Shown here piece after piece: positions 44,557 through 57,268 of a stretch of DNA of 64,000 nt. A model generated the notes under the pieces. That model searched no databases, was not told where the DNA came from, and saw nothing but the letters and a program-made list of their open reading frames with translations. The position numbers were made by a program, and so were the translations under genes. Each line of letters opens with the position of its first letter. Within the stretch, counting starts at the first letter, position 1. This DNA comes from Parasedimentitalea maritima (GTDB lineage Bacteria; Pseudomonadota; Alphaproteobacteria; Rhodobacterales; Rhodobacteraceae). Where the stretch lies: assembly GCF_005771405.1 (NCBI RefSeq), contig NZ_VAUA01000011.1, positions 124,001 to 188,000 of the forward strand. The letters run 5' to 3'.

Positions 44557-45189
44557 ATGTCTAACGCCATACGTATTCACGGCTTCCCTCTTTCCGGCCA
44601 CTCTCACCGTGTTGTGCTGTTTGCCAACCTTGCAGGGATCAACCACGAGGTGCTGACTGTTGACCTCGCCAATGGAGCCCACAAGAAGGACGACTTTCTG
44701 GCCAAAAACCCTGCAGGTCAGGTGCCCGTAATTGAAGATGGTGAAACCGTAATCAGCGACAGCAACGCCATCTTGGTTTACTTGGCTCGTAGATATGCCC
44801 CCTCTTACATTCCGAATGATCCAGCAGAAGAAGCTGCCGTTCAAAAATTTCTGACCCTTGCAGCGGGTGAACTGGCCTTTGGTCCAGCTGCAGCACGGTT
44901 GATTAACGTCTTCAAGGCACCCTTAGATGTCGATTTCACCCATGCGACTGCAGCCAAAGTTCTCGGAAAGCTCGAAACCCATTTGCAGGGCCGTGACTTC
45001 TTGGTTGGCGACACGCCAACAATTGCTGACGTAGCAATCTATAGCTACACCGCTCATGCCCCAGAAGGCGGGATTACTTTGGAGCCCTATCCAAATGTTC
45101 GTCGTCTGCTGGCCAATATCGAGGCCCTTGAAGGGTTTATCCCGATGCCGACTACACCAGTGGGACTACGCGCCTCCTCTGCGGCCTGA
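44557..45189 (+). CDS. Glutathione S-transferase
   Basis: This 210-residue cytoplasmic GST has an N-terminal thioredoxin fold (HGFPLSGHSHRVVLFANL, NPAGQVPVIEDGETVISDSNAI, split) and an alpha-helical C-domain with DTPTIADVAIYSY. The position of the catalytic Ser/Tyr is consistent with phi/beta-like members. It lies 64 nt upstream of a three-domain flavoprotein and is divergent from LysR, suggesting joint control for detoxification of an electrophile. Confidence 0.93.
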   Translation: MSNAIRIHGFPLSGHSHRVVLFANLAGINHEVLTVDLANGAHKKDDFLAKNPAGQVPVIEDGETVISDSNAILVYLARRYAPSYIPNDPAEEAAVQKFLTLAAGELAFGPAAARLINVFKAPLDVDFTHATAAKVLGKLETHLQGRDFLVGDTPTIADVAIYSYTAHAPEGGITLEPYPNVRRLLANIEALEGFIPMPTTPVGLRASSAA

Positions 45190-45253
45190 CCCATCTGCCC
45201 GGCCGATCTTATTTTGGCCGGGCCCCCCTTCCAGTTTCTCTATGAGGCCAGCC

Positions 45254-47323
45254 ATGACCGATCAGGCTCCATTCCCGCAATCGCCATTTCATGCTGGTGA
45301 ACAAGAGGCACAGGATCGTGTCGGCAAACGCGCCTCTATGGAGGCCTTTGGTAAAGTAGCGATCCGCCCATTCATGCCGGATCAGCACCGGACATTTTTT
45401 GAACAGCTCCCGTTTGTTGTTCTAGGCAGCGTTGATGAACAGGGGTGGCCTTGGGCCTCCATTCTGACCGGGGGCAACGGGTTTGTAAGGTCGCCCAACA
45501 GCAAGCGCCTTGACCTTGTTGCCAGGCCGATTCCCGGTGATCCATTGCAGGCCTCCCTAAAAAACGGTGCGCCCATTGGCCTGCTGGGGATCGAGATCCC
45601 CAGCCGCCGTCGCAACCGGATGAACGCGCAGGTAATTGAGAAAACCGACGGCGGCTTTTCTCTTGGTGTGACGCAGTCTTTTGGCAATTGCCCACAATAT
45701 ATCCAGACCCGAGATATTGAATTCATTCGCGATCCAGCAGCACCAACAGAGTGGTCTGCCCCCAACAAATTTACCGATTTGGACCAAGCCGCCATCGATT
45801 TCATTGAAGGCTCAGACACGTTTTTTGTGTCCAGTTTTATCAGCCCTACCAATGGCCTGACGGCTGAAGGGGTCGACGTATCACACCGTGGTGGCAGAGC
45901 GGGATTTGTCAAAGTCGACGGCAACACGCTGACCATCCCGGATTACTCCGGCAATAACTTTTTCAACACCATTGGCAACTTTTTGGTCAACCCCAAGGCA
46001 GGCCTCATCTTTCCGGACTTCGAAACCGGTGACCTGCTGATGTTGACTGGTACGGTCGAATTACTGTGGGAGGATCATCCAGAGGTCATTGCATTCAAAG
46101 GTGCTGAGCGGGGGTGGCGATTCACCCTCGACCACGGGCTGCACCTCTCTGATGCGCTGCCGTTTCGCGCACAGTTTGGGGAATGGTCACCTAATTCTCT
46201 ACTGGCCGATGACTGGGCCACGTCTGATGCACGCGCAAAGGTCGAAGAGCAGCGCAAAGCATGGCGAACTCTGCGCGTGGCCAAAATTGAAGATGAAAGC
46301 AGCGCCATCCGCTCGTTCTATCTTGAAGCCACTGACGACCAGCCGTTGCTTTCTTATGAGGCTGGGCAGTTTTTAACTATTCGCGTACGCCCTGATGGGA
46401 CTGGACCGCAAGTCCGGACATATACCCTGTCTTCAGCCCCGGCAGATCCGGCCTATAGAATTTCCGTAAAGCGCGAACCCAGCGGCATCGTGTCTAAGCA
46501 CTTGCATGACAATCTCATCGTCGGAGACACTATTGAAATCAAGGCCCCCAAAGGCGCGTTCTACATTGATGCGCTGGAAAACCGCCCGGCTGTTCTACTC
46601 GCTGGCGGTGTCGGGATCACGCCTATGATGGCAATGACCCGCCATGTCCTAAACGAGGGCGTTCGTAAACGATACCTACGCCCACTAACTGTCTTCCATG
46701 CAGCGCAGACGACAGAGCAGCGCGCATTCGCACAAGAGTTTCGCGCAGCTGAGGCTGAATCCACTGGGAAAATCCGCTATGTTTCGGTGATCGGACACCC
46801 CACCGAAGCTGAGGTTGCGGGCGAGGATTTTGATGCATCAGGGCGCATTGATGTAGATACATTACGCGCATATCTGGTGCTTGATGATTATGACTTTTTC
46901 CTTTGTGGTCCTTCGTCTTTCATGCAGGCGATGTACGACCTTTTGCGCGACCTCGGTGTTGCCGATGCTCGAATTTTCGCAGAGTCATTTGGCCCAGCAG
47001 TTCTGAGCCGAAGGGTGGATGCACAAGAGCAACTGCCAACACAACCACCGGAAGCTGAGATGGCGGTAGTTAAATTTGAAAAATCTGGCTTTGAGCAACA
47101 ATGGGAAACGGGCGATGGAACCCTGCTTGAAACAGCTGAGGCCCATGGTTTGACCCCAGATTTTTCGTGTCGGGCAGGATCTTGTGGAAGTTGTGCTGTC
47201 AAAAAACTGTCAGGTGAAGTCGCCTATCGAACGCTACCAACTGCCAAGGTCGCAACCGATGATGTTCTCATCTGTTGCGCAGTTCCGGCCCAAGGAAGCA
47301 GCACTTTGGTACTTGACCTTTAG
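45254..47323 (+). CDS. Three-domain redox protein: FMN-binding split barrel, ferredoxin-NAD(P) reductase, 2Fe-2S
   Basis: This is 689 residues. The N-terminal third (about 10-330) is a PNPOx-like flavin split barrel (PFVVLGSVDEQGWPWASIL, DLLMLTGTVELLWEDH). An FAD-binding reductase domain follows (about 350-450, RTYTLSSAPADP), then an NAD-binding domain (about 455-590, LLAGGVGITPMMAM). A plant-type 2Fe-2S domain ends the protein (about 605-689, CRAGSCGSC plus a later Cys in LICCAVP). The start at 45254 follows GAGG. It may pass NAD(P)H electrons to a flavin-bound substrate. It probably forms an operon with the GST gene. Confidence 0.92.
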   Translation: MTDQAPFPQSPFHAGEQEAQDRVGKRASMEAFGKVAIRPFMPDQHRTFFEQLPFVVLGSVDEQGWPWASILTGGNGFVRSPNSKRLDLVARPIPGDPLQASLKNGAPIGLLGIEIPSRRRNRMNAQVIEKTDGGFSLGVTQSFGNCPQYIQTRDIEFIRDPAAPTEWSAPNKFTDLDQAAIDFIEGSDTFFVSSFISPTNGLTAEGVDVSHRGGRAGFVKVDGNTLTIPDYSGNNFFNTIGNFLVNPKAGLIFPDFETGDLLMLTGTVELLWEDHPEVIAFKGAERGWRFTLDHGLHLSDALPFRAQFGEWSPNSLLADDWATSDARAKVEEQRKAWRTLRVAKIEDESSAIRSFYLEATDDQPLLSYEAGQFLTIRVRPDGTGPQVRTYTLSSAPADPAYRISVKREPSGIVSKHLHDNLIVGDTIEIKAPKGAFYIDALENRPAVLLAGGVGITPMMAMTRHVLNEGVRKRYLRPLTVFHAAQTTEQRAFAQEFRAAEAESTGKIRYVSVIGHPTEAEVAGEDFDASGRIDVDTLRAYLVLDDYDFFLCGPSSFMQAMYDLLRDLGVADARIFAESFGPAVLSRRVDAQEQLPTQPPEAEMAVVKFEKSGFEQQWETGDGTLLETAEAHGLTPDFSCRAGSCGSCAVKKLSGEVAYRTLPTAKVATDDVLICCAVPAQGSSTLVLDL

Positions 47324-47414: not shown

Positions 47415-48314
47415 TTATCTTGTTGAAATACACTGATGCATCCAGTCACAAAAAACCGACACGTTTGAGTTCACTTGGTTACTTGGCGTGACCAGAAAGT
47501 ACTGGTTTTTCGTCACCAGCGTTTGCGCGTTCAGCAGCACCAACTTGCCGTTGGCAAGCTCCTCTTCGATTAAATATGTTGGCAGCAACCCAACACCAAG
47601 CGAGGCCACTGCCCCAGCGATGATCATCGAAAACTGATCAAAGTACTTTCCGACCAGCACCGATGTTTGCGGCAAGCCCGCAAGATCAAAATAGGCTTCC
47701 CATGCTGTGGGGCGGGTGGTCATGTGCAACAAAGGGGCCGCTGCAAATTTCTCAACGGTATCCATTTGATGTCGCTTCATGAGATCTGGGGAAGAAACTG
47801 CAACCATTGTTTCCGAACAAAACGGAGCCATATCAGTATTTGGCCAGTCATCTCGGCCAAAGTGAATTGCGAGGTCGAAATGTTCAACATCCAGATCGAA
47901 AGGCTTCAATCGCGTTGACAGGTTAATTTCGATGTCCGGGTGTTGTTCGCTGAACAACGGCAAGCGTGGGATCAACCATCGGCTCGCAAAGGCTGGCAAG
48001 CAGGCCACACGCAATGCGGTTCCTTTTGCGCCACCGGCAATGGCGCGCATCATTGTGCGCCGAATGTTCTCCAAATCAATTGTCAGTTCCTTGGCCAGGC
48101 TTTCTCCGGCCTGTGTCAACACAACGCGACGCCCGACCCGACGAAAAAGCGGTGTGCCAATTGTCTGCTCCAACTCCTTAACCTGTCGACTGATCGCGCT
48201 TTGCGTCAGGTGAAGCTCCTCTGCGGCCAAGGTGAAACTACAATGTCGAGCTGCCGCTTCGAAACTGCGTAGCACAGAATGTGACGGAAGAATGCGACGG
48301 GGAGTACTGTGCAA
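47415..48314 (-). CDS. LysR-family regulator of the KamA locus (GcvA-like)
   Basis: This 299-residue protein has the GcvA/AmpR-type HTH (SVLRSFEAAARHCSFTLAAEELHLTQSAISRQVKELE, split) and a LysR substrate domain. The start is TTG at 48314, backed by AGAGG at ideal spacing. It is divergent from the KamA-ferredoxin-aminotransferase-ALDH genes across 176 bases containing a long dyad, so it very probably controls them and itself. The ligand may be lysine or a pathway intermediate (inference). Confidence 0.92.
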   Translation of the reverse strand: MHSTPRRILPSHSVLRSFEAAARHCSFTLAAEELHLTQSAISRQVKELEQTIGTPLFRRVGRRVVLTQAGESLAKELTIDLENIRRTMMRAIAGGAKGTALRVACLPAFASRWLIPRLPLFSEQHPDIEINLSTRLKPFDLDVEHFDLAIHFGRDDWPNTDMAPFCSETMVAVSSPDLMKRHQMDTVEKFAAAPLLHMTTRPTAWEAYFDLAGLPQTSVLVGKYFDQFSMIIAGAVASLGVGLLPTYLIEEELANGKLVLLNAQTLVTKNQYFLVTPSNQVNSNVSVFCDWMHQCISTR

Positions 48315-48490: not shown

Positions 48491-49921
48491 ATGGCACCTA
48501 AGGAAAAATACATCCCGTCCGAAACCGAAAAAGCGTTTTTGTCGACGGTCACCAACGGGAAGTATGATCGCGAGATCATCACCGGACTAAAGAAATTTGT
48601 CGATGGTTCCGTCCCTCAGGATATGCAGGGTTTCTATTCCAAGGAAGAACTCGACGCCATCATGGAATTGGACGGCACGGATAAGGACCTCCAAGCCCGT
48701 ATGCCGGTAAAAATCACTCGGCATTACTTTGAACAGGCGCTGAAATCCAAAGCTATTCAAACCCTGGTCAAGGCAAGCCCCAAGGAAACTTACGACTTAG
48801 ATGGAGCCGAAGATCCCGGCAAGCAAATGTCCTACAGCCCGGTCGAAGGTCTGATCCACAAGTATGAGCTGGGTCTGATCTATGTGGCCTCAACCTGTTC
48901 TGCGCACTGCCGGTTCTGCTACCGCGAAGAGCTGATCGCCAAGAAAGAGATCACCCGTGAAGACGGCACAGTAGCCGCCAAAGGTTTGGCGAAGATCAAA
49001 GATATCGTTGACTATGTGCTCGAGCATAACCGACTGGTCGATGAAAACAGTGGTCGCCACCCGGAAACCAACCGCGAACGCCTGCGTGAAATCCTCATGT
49101 CCGGTGGCGACCCGATGGTTCTGGGCAACAAGAACATTGCCCAGTGGCTCGGCGCTCTGTCCGAGGCCGGCATTGAAAGCATCCGCATCGGCACCAAAGA
49201 ACTCGCTTTCTATCCTGAGCGCTTTGACGAGACGTTCTTTGCCATGCTGGACGCTTTTCACGAAGCCTATCCACAAACCAATCTTCGAATGATGGTGCAC
49301 TTTAACCACCCCGACGAATTTCTGGCAAAAGACCCTGACGGCAACTACATCGAACACGCCCAAGGTGGCCTCGAGTGGATCCCCGCCACACGTGCCTCGG
49401 TCAAAGAATTTGCCCGTCGCTCTTGGATTAACATCGACAACCAGTCGCCGATCATTGCGGGCATCAACGATGACAGTGACGCCCTGCGCATCATGCAGCG
49501 TGAGCTAAAGCGCAACGGAGTTGAAAACCACTATTTCTTCTGCGGTCGCGACATCGTTGGCCACAAGGCGTTCAACGTGCCGATCGAAAAAGCTTGGCAC
49601 ATCCTGAACGAGTCGCAAAAAGGCCTATCAGGGGTCGAAGCCCACGCGCGCCTGTCGATCACCCACTACAAGGGCAAGACCGAAGTAGCCGCTGTCACCA
49701 ACACACTTTTCCCGGGCGTCAAAGGTGGCGAAAACGGTGTGGTGATCTTCAAGCTGCTGCGCTCGGCTGCGGATGCGCCGGATCGCTGCAAGGTGACCAT
49801 TGTGGGTCGCAACGAAGAAGCCATTTGGTTCAGCGGCTATGATGATCGTGTGATCATGGATGAGGCAGAGCTTTTTTCCATGTACGACATCCAGCCGCTC
49901 ACGGCCATTGCTGCCGAGTAA
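48491..49921 (+). CDS. KamA-family radical SAM aminomutase
   Basis: This 476-residue enzyme has the radical-SAM triad Cys136, Cys140 and Cys143 ([13 protein letters not shown]), an [12 protein letters not shown]-binding region and a C-terminal [13 protein letters not shown], where the family keeps its PLP lysine. Lysine 2,3-aminomutase moves the alpha-amino group to C3 using PLP and a 5'-deoxyadenosyl radical. The YREEL after the cluster differs from the clostridial TRRR form, so specificity could be lysine or another amino acid. It is the first gene of a four-gene unit. GAGG precedes the ATG. Confidence 0.9.
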
Positions 49922-49927
49922 CCCTTT

Positions 49928-49951
49928 CGCGCCCACCCTTTTGGGGGCGCG
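49928..49951 (+). other. Hairpin between kamA and fdxA
   Basis: Stem CGCGCCC/GGGCGCG extended by two more pairs around a T-rich loop, with no T-run afterwards. It lies in the 52-nt gap. It may adjust the relative amounts of enzyme and ferredoxin message by attenuation or 3'-end protection. Confidence 0.5.
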
Positions 49952-49973
49952 CACAACTGCCAAGGTTAATCCC

Positions 49974-50312
49974 ATGACTTATGTTGTCACCGACAACTGC
50001 ATCCAATGCAAATACACGGATTGTGTCGAGGTCTGTCCCGTTGAGTGCTTCTATGAAGGCCCCAACTTCCTGGTGATCCACCCGGGTGAATGCATCGACT
50101 GCGATGACTGCGTCGACGTCTGCCCGGCAAACGCGATCTTTAACGAGGACGACCTGCCCGAGGACAAGAAGCACTTCCTCGCCCTGAACGAGGAGCTGGC
50201 ACAGATCTGGCCGCAAATCACGGACCAGAAAGACCCACTGCCCGATGCAGCCAAATGGGACGGTGTAGCAGGCAAACTGGAACACTTGGATAAATCGGTG
50301 CCAGAGGGCTGA
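49974..50312 (+). CDS. fdxA: Seven-iron ferredoxin FdxA
   Basis: This 112-residue ferredoxin of the [3Fe-4S][4Fe-4S] Azotobacter FdI type has C9, C17 and C21 plus C12 ([19 protein letters not shown]) in the first half and [12 protein letters not shown] in the second, then the long C-terminal extension of FdxA. Next to a radical SAM enzyme, it most simply supplies the electron that reduces the SAM-binding cluster. It starts 3 codons' distance before the aminotransferase gene on the other side (stop at 50312, next ATG 50315). Confidence 0.95.
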
Positions 50313-50314
50313 AC

Positions 50315-51643
50315 ATGTCTGAACAATCGAAAAGCGCCGCATTGTATGACCGCGCCAAGCAGGTCATGCCCGGTGGCTGTAGCCGCAACACAATACTGCG
50401 CAAACCGCATCCGATCTACGCCGCCAAGGGCAAAGGCTGCTTTGTCACTGACATCGAAGGCGTCAAGCGTATCGACTTTGCCAATAACGTCGCCTCGCTG
50501 ATCCACGGCCACGCCCACCCGCGCATTGTGCAGGCGGTGAACGCGCAACTGGCGAATGGCTCCGCCTTTACGCTCGGGACCGAAATTGAGGTCAGCTATG
50601 CTGAACAGATGGTGGCCCGCAGCCCGAATTTTGAAAAAATTCGCTTTGTGAATTCCGGCACCGAAGCGGTGATGAGTTGCATCAAGGCAGCCCGCGCCTA
50701 CACCGGACGCGCCAAAATCGCCAAGGTCGAAGGCTCCTATCACGGACTTTATGATTATGCCGAGGTCAGCCAGACTGCCAAGCCAGCCAGTTGGGGTGCC
50801 GCTGACGCGCCCAACAGCGTGCCAGTCGCCAAGGGCACGCCGCAATCTGCGCTTGATGATGTAGTTGTCATTCCGTTCAACGACTCAGAGCGAGCGATTG
50901 CTATTTTGGACGCGCACAAGACAGAGATCGCTGGCATCGTGATTGATCTGCTGCCCCACCGGATTGGCGTCATCCCTGCGCAACCCGCCTTTGTCGAGGC
51001 TTTGCGCAATTGGGCAACCGCCAATGGAGTACTGATGATCATCGACGAAGTGATCACTTTCCGCACCAATTTTGGCGGCGCTCAGGAAAGCTACAACATC
51101 AAATCCGACCTTACCGCGATGGGTAAGATGATTGGTGGTGGTTTCCCGGTTGGAGCCATCGCTGGTCGTGCAGATGTGATGGATGTGATGGACCCAACAA
51201 ACGGCCCAGCGGCCTTTCCACACTACGGGACATTTAACGCCAACCCGATCACCATGACCGCTGGATCAGTTACGATGGGGATGTTCGATCAATCCGCCGT
51301 AACCAACTTAAATGCGCTGGCGGACAAAGCCCGCGCCGCTCTGGCAGAGGCCATTCGCATTGCAGATGTCCCGGCCTGCGTAACCGGGCGCGGATCAATG
51401 TTCCGTATCCACATGAAAGAACAGGCGCCAACAACCTACCGCAACGCCTTTGTTGGGCCCGACGAGCAAGCCTGCATCAGTGCGTTGCTGGATCACATGT
51501 TCGATAACGGGCTGATCATGATCGAGACCTGCTCGGGGCTATTATCGACCGCAATGACCCAAGCTGAAATCGATCAATTGGCGGATACCGTCCTGAACGG
51601 TCTTCGCAAAATCAAACCACTTCTTTTGGCAACCGCGGCCTAA
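50315..51643 (+). CDS. Class III aminotransferase, glutamate-1-semialdehyde aminomutase-like
   Basis: This 442-residue PLP enzyme has NSGTEAVMSCIKAARAYTGR, IIDEVITFR and the PLP lysine in LTAMGKMIGGGFPVG. A GSA-aminomutase fold is clear, but linkage to kamA and ALDH7, not heme genes, points to a catabolic transaminase acting on a terminal amine. It could take the omega-amino group of beta-lysine to give an aldehyde (inference). Only two bases separate it from the fdxA stop. Confidence 0.9.
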   Translation: MSEQSKSAALYDRAKQVMPGGCSRNTILRKPHPIYAAKGKGCFVTDIEGVKRIDFANNVASLIHGHAHPRIVQAVNAQLANGSAFTLGTEIEVSYAEQMVARSPNFEKIRFVNSGTEAVMSCIKAARAYTGRAKIAKVEGSYHGLYDYAEVSQTAKPASWGAADAPNSVPVAKGTPQSALDDVVVIPFNDSERAIAILDAHKTEIAGIVIDLLPHRIGVIPAQPAFVEALRNWATANGVLMIIDEVITFRTNFGGAQESYNIKSDLTAMGKMIGGGFPVGAIAGRADVMDVMDPTNGPAAFPHYGTFNANPITMTAGSVTMGMFDQSAVTNLNALADKARAALAEAIRIADVPACVTGRGSMFRIHMKEQAPTTYRNAFVGPDEQACISALLDHMFDNGLIMIETCSGLLSTAMTQAEIDQLADTVLNGLRKIKPLLLATAA

Positions 51644-51686
51644 CCACCCAGCACGCCACCTCAAAGTAACAAAAAGGGTAGAAAAA

Positions 51687-53213
51687 ATGACCGTACAAGA
51701 CACAATCACCTCAAGCCATCAGGACATCATCTCGGCTTGTCAGTTGAGCCCCGAAGAGACAACTGGCGGCGCGCTGGCCGTAACCACACCTGTTGATGGC
51801 AGCGTCATCGCAAACGTTCACGTCCATTCTGTTGAAGATGCAGACGCAATGATCGCCAAAGGCGTTGAAGCGTTTAAAGCCTGGCGCAAGGTCCCTGCCC
51901 CGCGTCGCGGCGAACTGGTCCGCTTGCTGGGTGAAGAACTGCGCGCCGAGAAAGAAAACCTTGGTCGTCTGGTGACTTTGGAATGCGGCAAGATCTACCA
52001 AGAAGGTCTGGGCGAAGTTCAGGAAATGATCGACATCTGTGACTTCGCCGTTGGCTTGTCACGCCAGTTGTATGGTCTGACCATCGCATCCGAGCGCCCC
52101 GGTCACACCATGCGTGAAACTTGGCATCCAAGCGGCATTTGCGGCATTATCACCGCCTTCAACTTCCCCGTCGCCCCATGGTGCTGGAACGCTGCATTGG
52201 CTCTGGTCTGTGGTGATCCGGTTATCGCCAAGCCATCTGAGAAGACCCCACTGACCCAATTGGCCGTCCAGAAAATCTGTGACCGTGCGATGGCTAAGTT
52301 CGGCTCAGATGCGCCAGAAGGCCTGATCCAGTCCCTGATCGGTGAGCGTGAAGTAGGACAGGCTCTGACAGCTTCCAAAGATGTTGCCATCATCTCAGCA
52401 ACCGGCTCTGTTCCAATGGGCAAGGCCGTTGCTGCGGACATGTCCAAACGTCTGGGCAAAACCATTCTGGAGCTGGGCGGCAACAACGCGATGATCGTTG
52501 CGCCGTCTGCTGACCTCGACATGGCCCTTCGCGCCATCGTGTTCTCGGCTGTTGGTACCGCTGGTCAGCGCTGCACCTCGCTGCGCCGCTTGGTTGTACA
52601 CGAAGACATCTATGACGACCTGATGCCGCGCCTGATCAAAGTCTATGCTGGCCTTAAGGTTGGCAGCCCACTGGCACCCACAACTCTGGTTGGCCCGCTA
52701 ATCGACCAGGGTTCCATGAACCAGATGAACAAAGCGCTTGAACAGGCCAAGGTTGAAGGCGGCAAAGTTCACGGTGGCGGTCAGACATTGACCGCAGACT
52801 ATCCAGAAGCGGCCTACGTTTCACCTGCGATTGTTGAGATGCCTGCGCAATCCGCGATCATGCACACTGAAACCTTCGCGCCAATCCTGTATGCAGTGAA
52901 ATACTCCGATCTGGACGACGCTATCGCACTGCAAAATGCGGTCCCTCAAGGCCTGTCCTCCTGCATCTTCTCGACTGACGTTCGAGAAACAGAAGAGTTC
53001 CTGTCGGCGGTTGGCTCTGACTGTGGCATTGCCAACGTCAACATTGGCCCCTCAGGTGCTGAAATCGGTGGTGCGTTCGGTGGTGAAAAGGAAACCGGCG
53101 GCGGTCGTGAAAGTGGATCTGACGCGTGGAAATCCTACATGCGCCGTCAAACAAGCACCGTGAATTATTCCCGCGAGCTGCCTTTGGCTCAAGGGATCGT
53201 GTTTGATATCTAA
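51687..53213 (+). CDS. ALDH7-type aldehyde dehydrogenase (aminoadipate semialdehyde dehydrogenase-like)
   Basis: This 508-residue NAD-dependent enzyme has NFPVAPWCWNAALAL, the catalytic Glu block ELGGNNAMIV and the Cys in GTAGQRCTSLRRL. The ALDH7-typical end is GGAFGGEKETGGGRESGSD. Bacterial ALDH7 (AmaB/Pcd) oxidises aminoadipate semialdehyde, in equilibrium with piperideine-6-carboxylate, during lysine breakdown. Here it would oxidise the aldehyde made by the aminotransferase. AAGGG precedes the ATG, and a strong terminator closes the unit. Confidence 0.93.
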   Translation: MTVQDTITSSHQDIISACQLSPEETTGGALAVTTPVDGSVIANVHVHSVEDADAMIAKGVEAFKAWRKVPAPRRGELVRLLGEELRAEKENLGRLVTLECGKIYQEGLGEVQEMIDICDFAVGLSRQLYGLTIASERPGHTMRETWHPSGICGIITAFNFPVAPWCWNAALALVCGDPVIAKPSEKTPLTQLAVQKICDRAMAKFGSDAPEGLIQSLIGEREVGQALTASKDVAIISATGSVPMGKAVAADMSKRLGKTILELGGNNAMIVAPSADLDMALRAIVFSAVGTAGQRCTSLRRLVVHEDIYDDLMPRLIKVYAGLKVGSPLAPTTLVGPLIDQGSMNQMNKALEQAKVEGGKVHGGGQTLTADYPEAAYVSPAIVEMPAQSAIMHTETFAPILYAVKYSDLDDAIALQNAVPQGLSSCIFSTDVRETEEFLSAVGSDCGIANVNIGPSGAEIGGAFGGEKETGGGRESGSDAWKSYMRRQTSTVNYSRELPLAQGIVFDI

Positions 53214-53217
53214 ATAA

Positions 53218-53261
53218 AACTCAGGGCCGGGAGACCACTTTGGGCTCCCGGCCCTGAGTTT
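53218..53261 (+). terminator. Strong terminator ending the KamA unit
   Basis: A perfect 16-bp stem (AACTCAGGGCCGGGAG at 53218-53233 and complement at 53245-53260) with an 11-base loop. It begins five bases after the ALDH stop. The T-run is short (TTT), but the stem is the longest in the window. Confidence 0.85.
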
Positions 53262-53387
53262 CAGTTGGTAATCCACCGCACTTCATGGGTGGTTTTGAAA
53301 TTGGCTCATGTAAATAAGACAGTTTCCAGTGCACAACAGACAACAATACTGTTGCTGCAACGAGTTAGTCTGCATATTCATTGTTCA

Positions 53388-55445
53388 ATGGCCAAGCAGA
53401 CGAGGACCGTTTTGAACCGTGCAGCATTGAAGCCCCATCACCTATTTCTCTTTATTATCGTTTTCCTTTGGCTCAGCCCATTTGCGCAAGCTGAAGACAG
53501 CCTTCCCAAGCCCCCAGAGTACGTAGGCTCTGAAACCTGTACGTCCTGTCATGCAGAGGCGGCTGAAGATTGGAAGGGCTCGCATCATGCCCTTGCTTGG
53601 ACCGCCCCCAGCGATGAAACAGTTGTTGGTCTCTTCGATGGCAGGTCTTTTTCACATCAGGGCACCACCTCTCGGTTTTCCAAAGAAGATGGGCGGTTTT
53701 TAATCGACACAAGCGATGTCAAAGGCGGACCACAGCAATACGAAGTTGTTGGTGTAGCTGGGATCGAACCGCTTCAGCAGTACATCGTTGAAACTGAACC
53801 TGGGCGCCTGCAATCCTTTGATGTGGTATGGGATGTGGAGCAGAACCGCTGGTTTCATCTCTATCCTGATCAGGAACTTACAGCTGATGATGGGCTGCAT
53901 TGGAGTGGTCCATATAAGAATTGGAATGCCCGCTGTGCAGAATGCCACGCCACCGGGTTTGAAAAGAATTACGACCCCAAAACCGAGATGTATCAAAGTC
54001 GACAAGTAGAGATCGGCGTTGGGTGTGAAGCTTGTCATGGCCCGGCCCAGGCGCATGTTGAGTGGGCGGAAACAGGGGTGCCTGTGGATGTGACCAAATG
54101 GGCAGGAACCAATGATATTGGGTTGCTGATCAATTTGCCTTCGGATGACTCTGCTGAGGCTGAATTACGTGGATATTTGGCCGGAACGCAGCAGCGGCTT
54201 AGCCGGTTAAGCCAAACAGAAACACAGATCCAGCAATGTGCCGGGTGCCACTCGCGCCGTGAACCGTTTGAAGGTGGTAACCCGCTCCCCGGCACGCCGT
54301 TTCACGATGCCTATCGACTAAGCAACCTCCGGGAAGGTCTGTATCACCCGGACGGGCAGATTGAGGATGAGGTCTATGCTTATGGGTCGTTCCTGCAATC
54401 CAAGATGTATGCCAATGGCGTCACCTGTACCAATTGCCACAACCCCCATACCGCCGAGGTAAAGCTGGAAGGGAATGCCCTATGTGGGCAATGTCATTCG
54501 CCAGCCGGAAACCCGGATTTTCCGAGCCTTGCATTGAAAGAATACGACGATCCCTCGCATACGTTTCATGCCGAAGGCAGCACCGGTGCCGAATGCAAAA
54601 GCTGCCACATGATTGAGCGCACCTATATGGGCGTTGATGGTCGCCGCGATCATTCATTCCGTATCCCACGTCCAGATCTGAGCCTGCAAACACAGGCTCC
54701 GAATGCCTGCAATGACTGCCACGACGATCAGACCTACGGTTGGGCAGCGGATGCGGTTGCCAGTTGGTATCCAAATAGCGCCAAACGCGGACCGCATTTT
54801 TCGCAAATTCTGGCTAAGGGTCGCAACGACCTGCGTGGTCAGGGCGAGGCGTTAGTTGGTTTGGCAGAATATGATGCATTGCCCGCCATCGTGCGAGCCA
54901 CCGCGTTGGATATGCTTGTGCCGCTGACCAATCCGGCGTTGGCGACAAGACTGGAGCCGCTGTTGTCCAACCCCGAACCGTTGATCCGGGTTGCAGCCAT
55001 TTCCATTCAGCGCGGCGCCCCCGAGACGGAACGATCAGCCCGCCTTGTTGGCCTGTTGGGGGATCCAGTAAAGGCCGTGCGTATTGCTGCAGCGCGTGGT
55101 TTTTTGGGGATGCGGATTGCCTATATGCCCGAGAAGATGAACCAGGATCTGAATGTTGCAATGGGCGAATGGCAGACGTCACTGGCAGCCAAGGCGGATT
55201 TCCCCGAGGCGCAGCTGGTGCTGGCTGGCATTGGGCTGACCACGCGGCGGATGGATGTTGCGTTGAATGCCTTTGGCGAGGCTGTGGAAATGGATCCGCA
55301 ATTGACCCAGGCCTGGGTCATGATGATCCGCATTCATGATGCGTTGGGTGATCGGCAGGCGGCGATTGAAACAGTTCACAACGCTTTGGAAAAGAACCCG
55401 AATGATGTGCAACTCAACCTGATGCGGGCCGATATCGGCGGATAA
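53388..55445 (+). CDS. Octaheme c-type cytochrome with C-terminal HEAT/TPR-like repeats
   Basis: This is 685 residues from the ATG at 53388, with a hydrophobic export signal (HLFLFIIVFLWLSPFAQA). There are eight CxxCH heme sites: CTSCH, CAECH, CEACH, CAGCH, CTNCH, CGQCH, CKSCH and CNDCH. The last 200 residues are helical repeats (DALPAIVRATALDML, NPEPLIRVAAISI, DVALNAFGEAVEMDP) for protein contacts. It is a periplasmic electron carrier or multiheme reductase; substrate not evident. No strong ribosome site. It is the first gene of the sulfatase/phosphatase/Bat assembly. Confidence 0.9.
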   Translation: MAKQTRTVLNRAALKPHHLFLFIIVFLWLSPFAQAEDSLPKPPEYVGSETCTSCHAEAAEDWKGSHHALAWTAPSDETVVGLFDGRSFSHQGTTSRFSKEDGRFLIDTSDVKGGPQQYEVVGVAGIEPLQQYIVETEPGRLQSFDVVWDVEQNRWFHLYPDQELTADDGLHWSGPYKNWNARCAECHATGFEKNYDPKTEMYQSRQVEIGVGCEACHGPAQAHVEWAETGVPVDVTKWAGTNDIGLLINLPSDDSAEAELRGYLAGTQQRLSRLSQTETQIQQCAGCHSRREPFEGGNPLPGTPFHDAYRLSNLREGLYHPDGQIEDEVYAYGSFLQSKMYANGVTCTNCHNPHTAEVKLEGNALCGQCHSPAGNPDFPSLALKEYDDPSHTFHAEGSTGAECKSCHMIERTYMGVDGRRDHSFRIPRPDLSLQTQAPNACNDCHDDQTYGWAADAVASWYPNSAKRGPHFSQILAKGRNDLRGQGEALVGLAEYDALPAIVRATALDMLVPLTNPALATRLEPLLSNPEPLIRVAAISIQRGAPETERSARLVGLLGDPVKAVRIAAARGFLGMRIAYMPEKMNQDLNVAMGEWQTSLAAKADFPEAQLVLAGIGLTTRRMDVALNAFGEAVEMDPQLTQAWVMMIRIHDALGDRQAAIETVHNALEKNPNDVQLNLMRADIGG

Positions 55446-55681
55446 CCTGCTGGCATCAACGTCACCAAAAAAACTCCTAGACCCGAGGACCATGGAATGC
55501 TTATGTTGGGTTTGGTGGAAGGTGAGCTTTAATATTCATCCAGCAATTGCAATGTGTTGGTGATTTTGGATGAAGTGTATCCGGTTTGATTAAACATAGC
55601 TGACCTAATTCTTACGATTAATCGCTGTCCGCACGACTTGTGTTGGCAATTGCGCAAAAACCCAATTTTAGGGAGTTGAAA

Positions 55682-57268
55682 ATGATCAAAGACATTCGTG
55701 ACAAAGGGACCGGCCTTTTACTGGGCATAGGCGCGTTGACGGCTGTGGCAGCTTTGGCAGCAGCCCCGGCAATGGCGCAGGATAAGCCAAACATTCTGGT
55801 AATCTGGGGCGATGATATCGGCCAGTCCAACATCTCAGCCTACACAATGGGGCTGATGGGATACCGGACACCCAGTATCGACAGAATTGCTGCCGAAGGC
55901 ATGATCTTTACCGACTACTATGGTGAGCAGTCCTGCACGGCCGGCCGTTCGTCGTACATCATGGGCCAAAGTGTGTTCCGTACCGGCCTGTCCAAGGTTG
56001 GCCTTCCCGGCGCCAAAGAGGGCATGCGGGTTGAAGATCCGACCATTGCGGGCCTGCTAAAGGCCGAAGGGTATGTGACGGGTCAGTTTGGTAAGAACCA
56101 CCTTGGCGATCTGGATGAAATGCTGCCAACCAATCACGGCTTTGATGAGTTTTTTGGCAATCTGTACCACCTGAACGCAGAAGAAGAGCCCGAGAACGAA
56201 GACTATCCTACTGACGTGGTTCTGGCCGACGGACGCACCTTCCGCGAAGCCTTTGGGCCACGCGGCGTGATCCGCTCCGCCGCGGACGGCACCGTTGAAG
56301 ACACCGGCCCACTGACCAAGAAGCGCATGGAAACTGTGGATGATGAAACCGTCGCCGCGGCGCTGGATTTCATGCAGCGCGCGGTTGATCAGGAAAAACC
56401 GTTTTATGTCTGGTGGAACGGCACACGGATGCACTTCCGTACCCACGTAAAGGACGAGCTGCGCGGCATTTCCGGTCAGGATGAATATTCTGATGGCATG
56501 GTAGAACACGACATGCATGTTGGTCAGTTGCTGGACAAAGTGGACGAGCTGGGCATCGCCGATAATACCATCGTGCATTATTCGACCGACAACGGCGTGC
56601 ACATGAACACTTGGCCGGATGCGGGAATGACCCCATTCTTTGGTGAGAAAAACACCAACTGGGAAGGTGGCTGGCGGGTGCCGTCGATTGTGCGCTGGCC
56701 CGGAAAAATCGAAGCCGGTTCCGTTAGCAATGAAATCATGCACCACATGGACTGGTTGCCGACCTTTATGGCGGCTGCGGGCAACCCCGACATCAAGGCT
56801 CAGCTGAAAGAAGGCGGAGTTCAGGCTATTGGTCGTGAGTACAACGTTCATTTGGACGGCTACAATTTCTTGCCAGTTTTGACCGGAGAGCAAGAAGAGG
56901 GACCGCGCAAAGAGATTTTCTACTTCTCGGACGACGGAGACCTGACAGCACTGCGCTATGAAGACTGGAAGATGATTTTCCTGGAGCAAAAAGCCTACAC
57001 CACCTTGCGTGCTTGGGTTGAACCCTGGACCGAATTGCGTGTTCCGCTGATCTTTAACCTGCGTCGCGACCCATATGAGCGCGCATATCGGACGTCCAAT
57101 ACATATTGGGATTGGGTGATTGATCGCGTCTATCTGCTGGTACCTGCGCAGGCTTATGTGGGTCAGTTCCTTGCGACATTCGAAGAATTCCCACCTCGCC
57201 AAAAAGCGGCCTCTTTCTCACTGTCGCAAGTGATGGAGAAAATGACCTCCAATCTGGGCAGCAACTAA
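55682..57268 (+). CDS. Exported arylsulfatase (FGly type)
   Basis: This 528-residue periplasmic enzyme has a signal peptide ending AAAPAMAQD. The metal Asp pair is D44-D45 in WGDDIGQSN. The catalytic Cys85 lies in CTAGR, which fits the C-x-[AP]-x-R rule for conversion to formylglycine. The long acidic insert and VDDETVAAALDF are typical of type-I sulfatases acting on organic sulfates. The needed formylglycine-generating enzyme is not in this window. AGGGAG precedes the ATG. The substrate is unknown. Confidence 0.92.
   Translation: MIKDIRDKGTGLLLGIGALTAVAALAAAPAMAQDKPNILVIWGDDIGQSNISAYTMGLMGYRTPSIDRIAAEGMIFTDYYGEQSCTAGRSSYIMGQSVFRTGLSKVGLPGAKEGMRVEDPTIAGLLKAEGYVTGQFGKNHLGDLDEMLPTNHGFDEFFGNLYHLNAEEEPENEDYPTDVVLADGRTFREAFGPRGVIRSAADGTVEDTGPLTKKRMETVDDETVAAALDFMQRAVDQEKPFYVWWNGTRMHFRTHVKDELRGISGQDEYSDGMVEHDMHVGQLLDKVDELGIADNTIVHYSTDNGVHMNTWPDAGMTPFFGEKNTNWEGGWRVPSIVRWPGKIEAGSVSNEIMHHMDWLPTFMAAAGNPDIKAQLKEGGVQAIGREYNVHLDGYNFLPVLTGEQEEGPRKEIFYFSDDGDLTALRYEDWKMIFLEQKAYTTLRAWVEPWTELRVPLIFNLRRDPYERAYRTSNTYWDWVIDRVYLLVPAQAYVGQFLATFEEFPPRQKAASFSLSQVMEKMTSNLGSN

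Follow-up and report, generated by a model that had tools for sequence, protein, structure and literature searches.

A predicted route from lysine through 3-aminoadipate to 3-oxoadipate, centred on a KamA-like radical aminomutase found in several phyla

The window analysed here, a stretch of 64,000 nucleotides from Parasedimentitalea maritima (assembly GCF_005771405.1, contig NZ_VAUA01000011.1, positions 124,001 to 188,000), carries an operon of four genes encoding a KamA-like radical S-adenosylmethionine (SAM) and pyridoxal 5′-phosphate (PLP) aminomutase, the ferredoxin FdxA, a class III aminotransferase and an aldehyde dehydrogenase (ALDH) of the ALDH7 family. We propose, at a probability of about 0.7, that this operon encodes the middle part of a route from lysine through 2-aminoadipate semialdehyde, 2-aminoadipate, 3-aminoadipate and 3-oxoadipate to succinyl-CoA and acetyl-CoA, with the KamA-like enzyme forming 3-aminoadipate. 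Somewhat less firmly, we regard it as probable that this is an undescribed lysine (2-aminoadipate) pathway of several phyla, in which a radical SAM aminomutase joins the beta-ketoadipate pathway and no carbon is lost before succinyl-CoA and acetyl-CoA. The pathway is most likely a new combination, all of its catalytic roles being predictions, and the aminomutase most likely a new substrate group inside a known superfamily. No precedent for a 2-aminoadipate aminomutase or for 3-aminoadipate catabolism was found in the portion of the literature covered, preprints and most subscription papers lying outside its scope. If the proposal is true, radical aminomutases gain a new substrate, the catabolism of a common amino acid meets aromatic degradation at 3-oxoadipate, and a protein group whose inspected annotated copy is labelled hypothetical acquires a function.

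In the proposed scheme, 2-aminoadipate semialdehyde would arise from lysine via saccharopine or a lysine-6-dehydrogenase-like enzyme, or from pipecolate, and ALDH7 would oxidize it to L-2-aminoadipate. The KamA-like enzyme, using SAM and PLP and presumably reduced by FdxA, would move the amino group from C2 to C3, and the HemL-like transaminase would convert the resulting 3-aminoadipate to 3-oxoadipate. Flux would then pass through a PcaI/PcaJ-type CoA-transferase, forming 3-oxoadipyl-CoA, and a 3-oxoadipyl-CoA thiolase, releasing succinyl-CoA and acetyl-CoA; genes for both lie within the operon in many relatives and elsewhere on the window's genome. These last two steps would use the same enzyme families as the beta-ketoadipate pathway (PcaIJ, PcaF), in which, however, 3-oxoadipate derives from an aromatic ring and not from an amino acid. 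The ALDH7 step to 2-aminoadipate would be common to lysine degradation via 2-aminoadipate and 2-oxoadipate, where HglS is the known next step after 2-oxoadipate (PMC7286885). In contrast to that route, the amino group of 2-aminoadipate would be shifted to C3 rather than removed, and the window's own genome yielded no HglS.

Family, fold and active site of the KamA-like protein

Six NCBIfam KamA models matched the KamA-like protein weakly (80–94 bits), each far below its cut-off: 94 bits against 199 for the broad KamA model TIGR00238, 80 against 525 for the lysine 2,3-aminomutase (LAM) model TIGR03820 and 82 against 650 for the glutamate 2,3-aminomutase model TIGR04368. The top fold match of its AlphaFold2 (AF2) model (pLDDT confidence score 86.9) was LAM (AblA/KamA, PDB 2a5h; E 2.4e-15, TM score 0.55 by query length), with 18–19% identity in the fold match. 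Identity to L103, the locus standing in for LAM at position 330, was 22%; the best match of L103 itself is AblA, at 421 bits against a cut-off of 525. The likeness to LAM comprises the fold, the CX3CX2C motif (C136/C140/C143), the PLP lysine and the carboxylate-binding Arg, whereas both lysine-binding Asp are replaced and two insertions of about 16 and about 19 residues separate the aligned sequences.

A genome scan returned 114 relatives, of which 80 (63–95% identity) were kept, and the main alignment comprised 80 KamA sequences, from the window and 79 loci. Zongyanglinia huanghaiensis, a cultivable marine relative, has a copy with 95% identity. The three cluster Cys, R145 (LAM R134) and K396 (LAM K337) were invariant in all 80. 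Arg353 occupies the position of LAM D293 in 80/80 sequences, and in 56/56 of a smaller alignment made up of 54 of the 80 loci, the window and L082; position 389, equivalent to LAM D330, holds Ser in 77 sequences and Thr in the other 3. In LAM we take D293 and D330 to bind the side-chain amine of lysine, R134 the substrate carboxylate and K337 the PLP, D293 having been checked by counting. Arg353 was equated with D293 from the alignment to 2a5h, and an alignment to other KamA families, from which L015 was left out for a stop in its extracted frame, agrees and gives Ser389 as the counterpart of D330; the placement of Arg353 in the pocket thus derives from alignments and not from AF2 coordinates.

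Glutamate 2,3-aminomutase carries Lys and Asn in place of these two Asp, a difference that served to correct a lysine annotation, as PMC3965090 reports. The KamA-like protein resembles that enzyme in having the Asp pair substituted, as for a dicarboxylic substrate, but carries Arg/Ser in place of Lys/Asn. Because both LAM Asp are replaced, as in glutamate 2,3-aminomutase, the KamA-like protein is unlikely to act on lysine and likely to act on a dicarboxylic amino acid. An earlier note on this DNA had already suspected from a divergent cluster motif that another amino acid might be the true substrate, and the loss of the Asp pair in favour of Arg353 and Ser/Thr389 bears this out.

In a FastTree phylogeny the 80 KamA sequences formed one group (support 0.911) with L082 as its sister. 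L082:1444-3021 (genome G355) represents a separate KamA-like family, 33–42% identical, with the motif CSAHCRYCYR and Arg at the LAM D293 position; its protein had no Pfam match at E ≤ 1e-5 and lay under all KamA cut-offs listed. Arg at this position also occurs in the KamA-like proteins of L083–L090, L092–L097, L099 and L101. Among those scanned, L084, L086 and L101 fell under every KamA cut-off, and L095 passed the broad TIGR00238 alone. Given these four cases of Arg at the D293 position with low model scores, several acidic-substrate aminomutases may be misfiled as lysine 2,3-aminomutases.

Partner enzymes and their co-occurrence with KamA

Regarding lysine degradation via 2-aminoadipate, to which AmaB belongs, the window ALDH scored 796 bits with NF050084, the L-piperideine-6-carboxylate (P6C) dehydrogenase equivalog, above its cut-off of 730, in accordance with the earlier view of this enzyme as an aminoadipate semialdehyde oxidizer. 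NF050084 was also passed, at roughly cut-off level, by 13/14 ALDH copies in all (the window and 13 in-locus copies, one of them a 101-aa piece). Since the ALDH is of the P6C type with 2-aminoadipate as product, and since it accompanies a lysine-6-dehydrogenase-like gene in some relatives, we place it before KamA and not after it; it should act upstream of the aminomutase, feeding 2-aminoadipate to KamA.

The aminotransferase reached 333 bits with the HemL model TIGR00713, under the cut-off of 527. The nearest structure to its model was 6k8h, a Sphaerobacter transaminase (45% identity, TM 0.94), followed by ForI and a beta-selective aminotransferase. With 6k8h and the beta-amino acid transaminases 2ykx and 4ao9 it shares the fold and 31–45% identity, but the window aminotransferase group is set apart by the residues conserved within it (38 of 52 copies aligned together with the window). 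A beta-amino acid substrate is plausible from the structural model. PMC3469384 and PMC6150868 describe how beta-phenylalanine is transaminated to a beta-keto acid, by a route that differs from the one proposed.

Neighbours of KamA were counted over the 80 retained loci, whose record labels span Alpha- and Gammaproteobacteria, Flavobacteriaceae, Planctomycetota, Chloroflexi, Acidimicrobiia and Gemmatimonadota, labels to be taken with caution as many are metagenome-assembled genomes. The aminotransferase was found in 59/80, PcaI and PcaJ in 42/80 each, PcaF in 22/80, FdxA in 27/80, ALDH in 13/80, a lysine-dehydrogenase-like gene in 10/80, Lrp in 5/80 and the LysR gene (at least 35% identity) in 45/80. 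Where 3.2 kb or more lies downstream (62 loci), the counts were 51 for the aminotransferase, 36 for PcaI, 37 for PcaJ, 21 for PcaF, 12 for ALDH and 8 for the lysine-dehydrogenase-like gene. The records in which CoA-transferase genes stand next to KamA bear the labels Pseudomonadota, Flavobacteriaceae, Planctomycetota, Gemmatimonadota and Acidimicrobiia; for the thiolase the labels are Pseudomonadota, Planctomycetota and Acidimicrobiia. In controls from other KamA-like families, 0/29 loci held any partner gene, but these loci measured just 2.4–3.8 kb.

Of 20 thiolases, a set that included two incomplete copies (283 and 210 aa), 18 passed the 3-oxoadipyl-CoA thiolase equivalog TIGR02430 at E ≤ 1e-179, which is about its cut-off (674 bits for L007 and 616 for L075 against 597). 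The lysine-dehydrogenase-like gene has saccharopine-dehydrogenase domains, and its closest solved relative is PDB 3abi, which we take to be L-lysine 6-dehydrogenase; the three copies scanned had no NCBIfam match at E ≤ 1e-30. The complete set was seen in a genome of the same family (G756, locus L160), where Lrp, ALDH7, the lysine-dehydrogenase-like gene, PcaF, PcaJ, PcaI, the class III aminotransferase, ferredoxin, KamA and LysR lie within about 10 kb, and L007 has an identical gene set.

ALDH genes were also sought outside the locus, in the genomes of 50 of the 67 loci that have none in place, the 17 on the shortest contigs being excluded. L156/L159 (G735), which look like the genome of L002, were not given a separate count. 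An ALDH above the cut-off was present in 30/50 of these genomes against 82/396 Pseudomonadota (Fisher p 1.9e-8 for 30/50 against 81/395, own genome excluded). In some KamA genomes this ALDH lies apart from KamA, together with lysine-dehydrogenase-like or FAD amine oxidase genes. At L137 3465-6403, a second locus in the genome of L037, PcaI, PcaJ and ALDH7 are adjacent and apart from KamA, which is a predicted independent link of 2-aminoadipate with 3-oxoadipate metabolism.

Within the family KamA is rare (4/394 genomes at E ≤ 1e-100, own genome included). The window's own genome encodes an adjacent pair of Lys1-like and Lys9-like saccharopine dehydrogenases, one PcaF equivalog in a cluster resembling what we take to be phenylacetate degradation, one ScoAB pair and one further CoA-transferase in a 524-aa frame; lysine 6-aminotransferase gave no match above cut-off there. 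A candidate lysine-dehydrogenase-like gene in this genome was rejected, at just 27% identity over 128 aa, the best solved relative of its open reading frame (ORF) being saccharopine reductase. According to PMC12442348, the Roseobacter Roseovarius nubinhibens has a 3-oxoadipate CoA-transferase gene pair away from its pca cluster and divides thiolysis among several thiolases. Given this precedent for a dispersed CoA-transferase pair and shared thiolases, the window's own genome could encode every step of the route.

Separately, the conjugative Mesorhizobium plasmid locus L133 (NZ_AP023244.1 335214-338365) carries the KamA-like gene, fdxA and the aminotransferase near a BREX defence system; this KamA-like gene is the inspected copy annotated as a hypothetical protein.

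Alternative explanations and points against the proposal

The earlier note had arranged the same genes in the order lysine, beta-lysine, 3-amino-6-oxohexanoate, 3-aminoadipate. In its fuller form, KamA would make beta-lysine, the C6 amine would be oxidized or transaminated, the ALDH would yield 3-aminoadipate and the transaminase 3-oxoadipate, followed by the same CoA-transferase and thiolase. Such a route likewise terminates at 3-oxoadipate and hence fits PcaF, and the lysine-related ALDH and the lysine-dehydrogenase-like gene of the loci suit it as well; the broader theme of lysine catabolism is kept in our proposal. However, the change of LAM D293 to Arg and of D330 to Ser/Thr and the 80 bits obtained with the LAM model speak against beta-lysine as product, and the ALDH is an alpha-type P6C dehydrogenase, sometimes away from KamA with lysine-dehydrogenase-like or FAD amine oxidase genes, which argues for a place upstream of KamA. 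Active-site residues, enzyme order and neighbour genes together rule out the beta-lysine order as the leading explanation, and we consider it very unlikely. Less improbable, though still unlikely, is a different acidic substrate for KamA, for instance glutamate, in a route that degrades beta-glutamate or something similar: an Arg in the side-chain pocket suits any dicarboxylic amino acid, and a relative with such a substrate is known in glutamate 2,3-aminomutase. This alternative is opposed by the 82 bits with the glutamate aminomutase model, the thiolase of the C6 3-oxoadipyl type, and the ALDH7 and lysine-dehydrogenase-like genes, which indicate a C6 compound. N-acetyl-beta-lysine osmolytes exist, and the beta-amino acid might be an end product, an osmolyte or secondary metabolite, with the other genes mere neighbours. 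Nine loci with 8 kb flanks in which KamA lacks catabolic partners would agree with this, but CoA-transferase (five taxon labels) and thiolase (three) recur beside KamA, and the operon genes include no acetyltransferase, as the earlier note had remarked; the AblB acetyltransferase that accompanies AblA in N-acetyl-beta-lysine synthesis was not found in a scan of the operon and its two flanking genes. We regard this last explanation as highly improbable.

Several observations weigh against the proposed route through 2-aminoadipate itself. Arg353 can at best point to an acidic side chain, not to aminoadipate specifically, and other KamA-like proteins have Arg at the D293 position in 17/29 cases, with Asp in 10/29 and Met in 2/29. 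The window operon contains no CoA-transferase or thiolase gene, and the models used for PcaI/PcaJ work at subfamily level and also cover other 3-oxoacid transferases. The aminotransferase is absent from 21/80 loci, in 10 of which the contig extends no further than 1.8 kb downstream. The nine partnerless loci flanked by 8 kb on each side are L034, L037, L040, L046, L061, L063, L078, L080 and L081, with LysR in four and a weak Lys1-like match in L046; in L022, with 6.4 kb downstream, LysR is the sole partner. At L060:8445-9848 KamA, PcaI and PcaJ are followed by another class III aminotransferase in place of the usual one, a possible non-orthologous replacement. The Fisher test carries no phylogenetic correction, and its two genome sets differ in make-up. 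No ALDH above the cut-off was found in 20/50 KamA genomes; of these 20, 12 have the in-locus aminotransferase and three (G411, G442 and G444) show partial high-scoring matches. HglS lies inside the KamA cluster of L014, and adjoins ALDH7 or stands one gene off in L141 and L147 (genomes of L029 and L009), so some hosts can hold both exits from 2-aminoadipate; it was not found in 13/14 genomes examined, a count without a base rate, and no anti-correlation is claimed.

Layout of the locus and surrounding features

The features of the locus are listed below. The layout described earlier, four co-directional genes separated by 52, 2 and 43 nt with LysR divergent, was recovered in place, and family searches agreed with the names given to the KamA-like protein, FdxA, the class III aminotransferase and the ALDH. 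As for the locus being self-contained, the four-gene unit is real, but in many relatives it is extended by genes for CoA-transferase, thiolase and a lysine-dehydrogenase-like protein. The neighbourhood conservation set out earlier as a check was found for the aminotransferase (59/80 loci) and FdxA (27/80).

Features of the KamA locus (positions in the window)
Feature	Position	Strand	Basis and proposed role
KamA-like radical SAM/PLP aminomutase, 476 aa	48491-49921	+	ORF, family search; L-2-aminoadipate 2,3-aminomutase is a proposal
FdxA ferredoxin	49974-50312	+	NF045490 above cut-off; electron donor role to the aminomutase is a proposal
HemL-like class III aminotransferase	50315-51643	+	Aminotran_3; 3-aminoadipate transaminase role is a proposal
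ALDH7 / L-piperideine-6-carboxylate (2-aminoadipate semialdehyde) dehydrogenase	51687-53213	+	Aldedh, NF050084 above cut-off
LysR regulator, divergent	47415-48314	-	LysR family; NCBIfam best match GcvA, under cut-off
Hairpin 3′ of the operon, likely terminator with weak U-tract	53217-53261	+	Folding against shuffles

FdxA scored 160 bits with NF045490 (cut-off 135), in searches that took in 111 of 112 aa (start 49977, one codon past the ATG). The hairpin earlier called a strong terminator is stable, with an outer stem of 17 bp and −39.8 kcal/mol (z −7.4, equalled by 0/200 shuffles), but its U-tract is weak and it is not among the sites listed by the terminator scan. A sigma-70 scan listed no promoter-like site within the LysR-kamA gap. 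Judged by eye, the aligned upstream regions of the window and 8 loci share a partly conserved block with no discernible palindrome as a LysR site.

On the LysR side, a 755-aa ORF (45056-47323) combines a pyridoxamine oxidase-like domain, an FAD/NAD reductase and a 2Fe-2S ferredoxin domain. Directly 3′ of the operon hairpin lies a multihaem cytochrome c with TPR repeats (53265-55445), followed by an ORF (55640-57268) that we take to be sulfatase-like.

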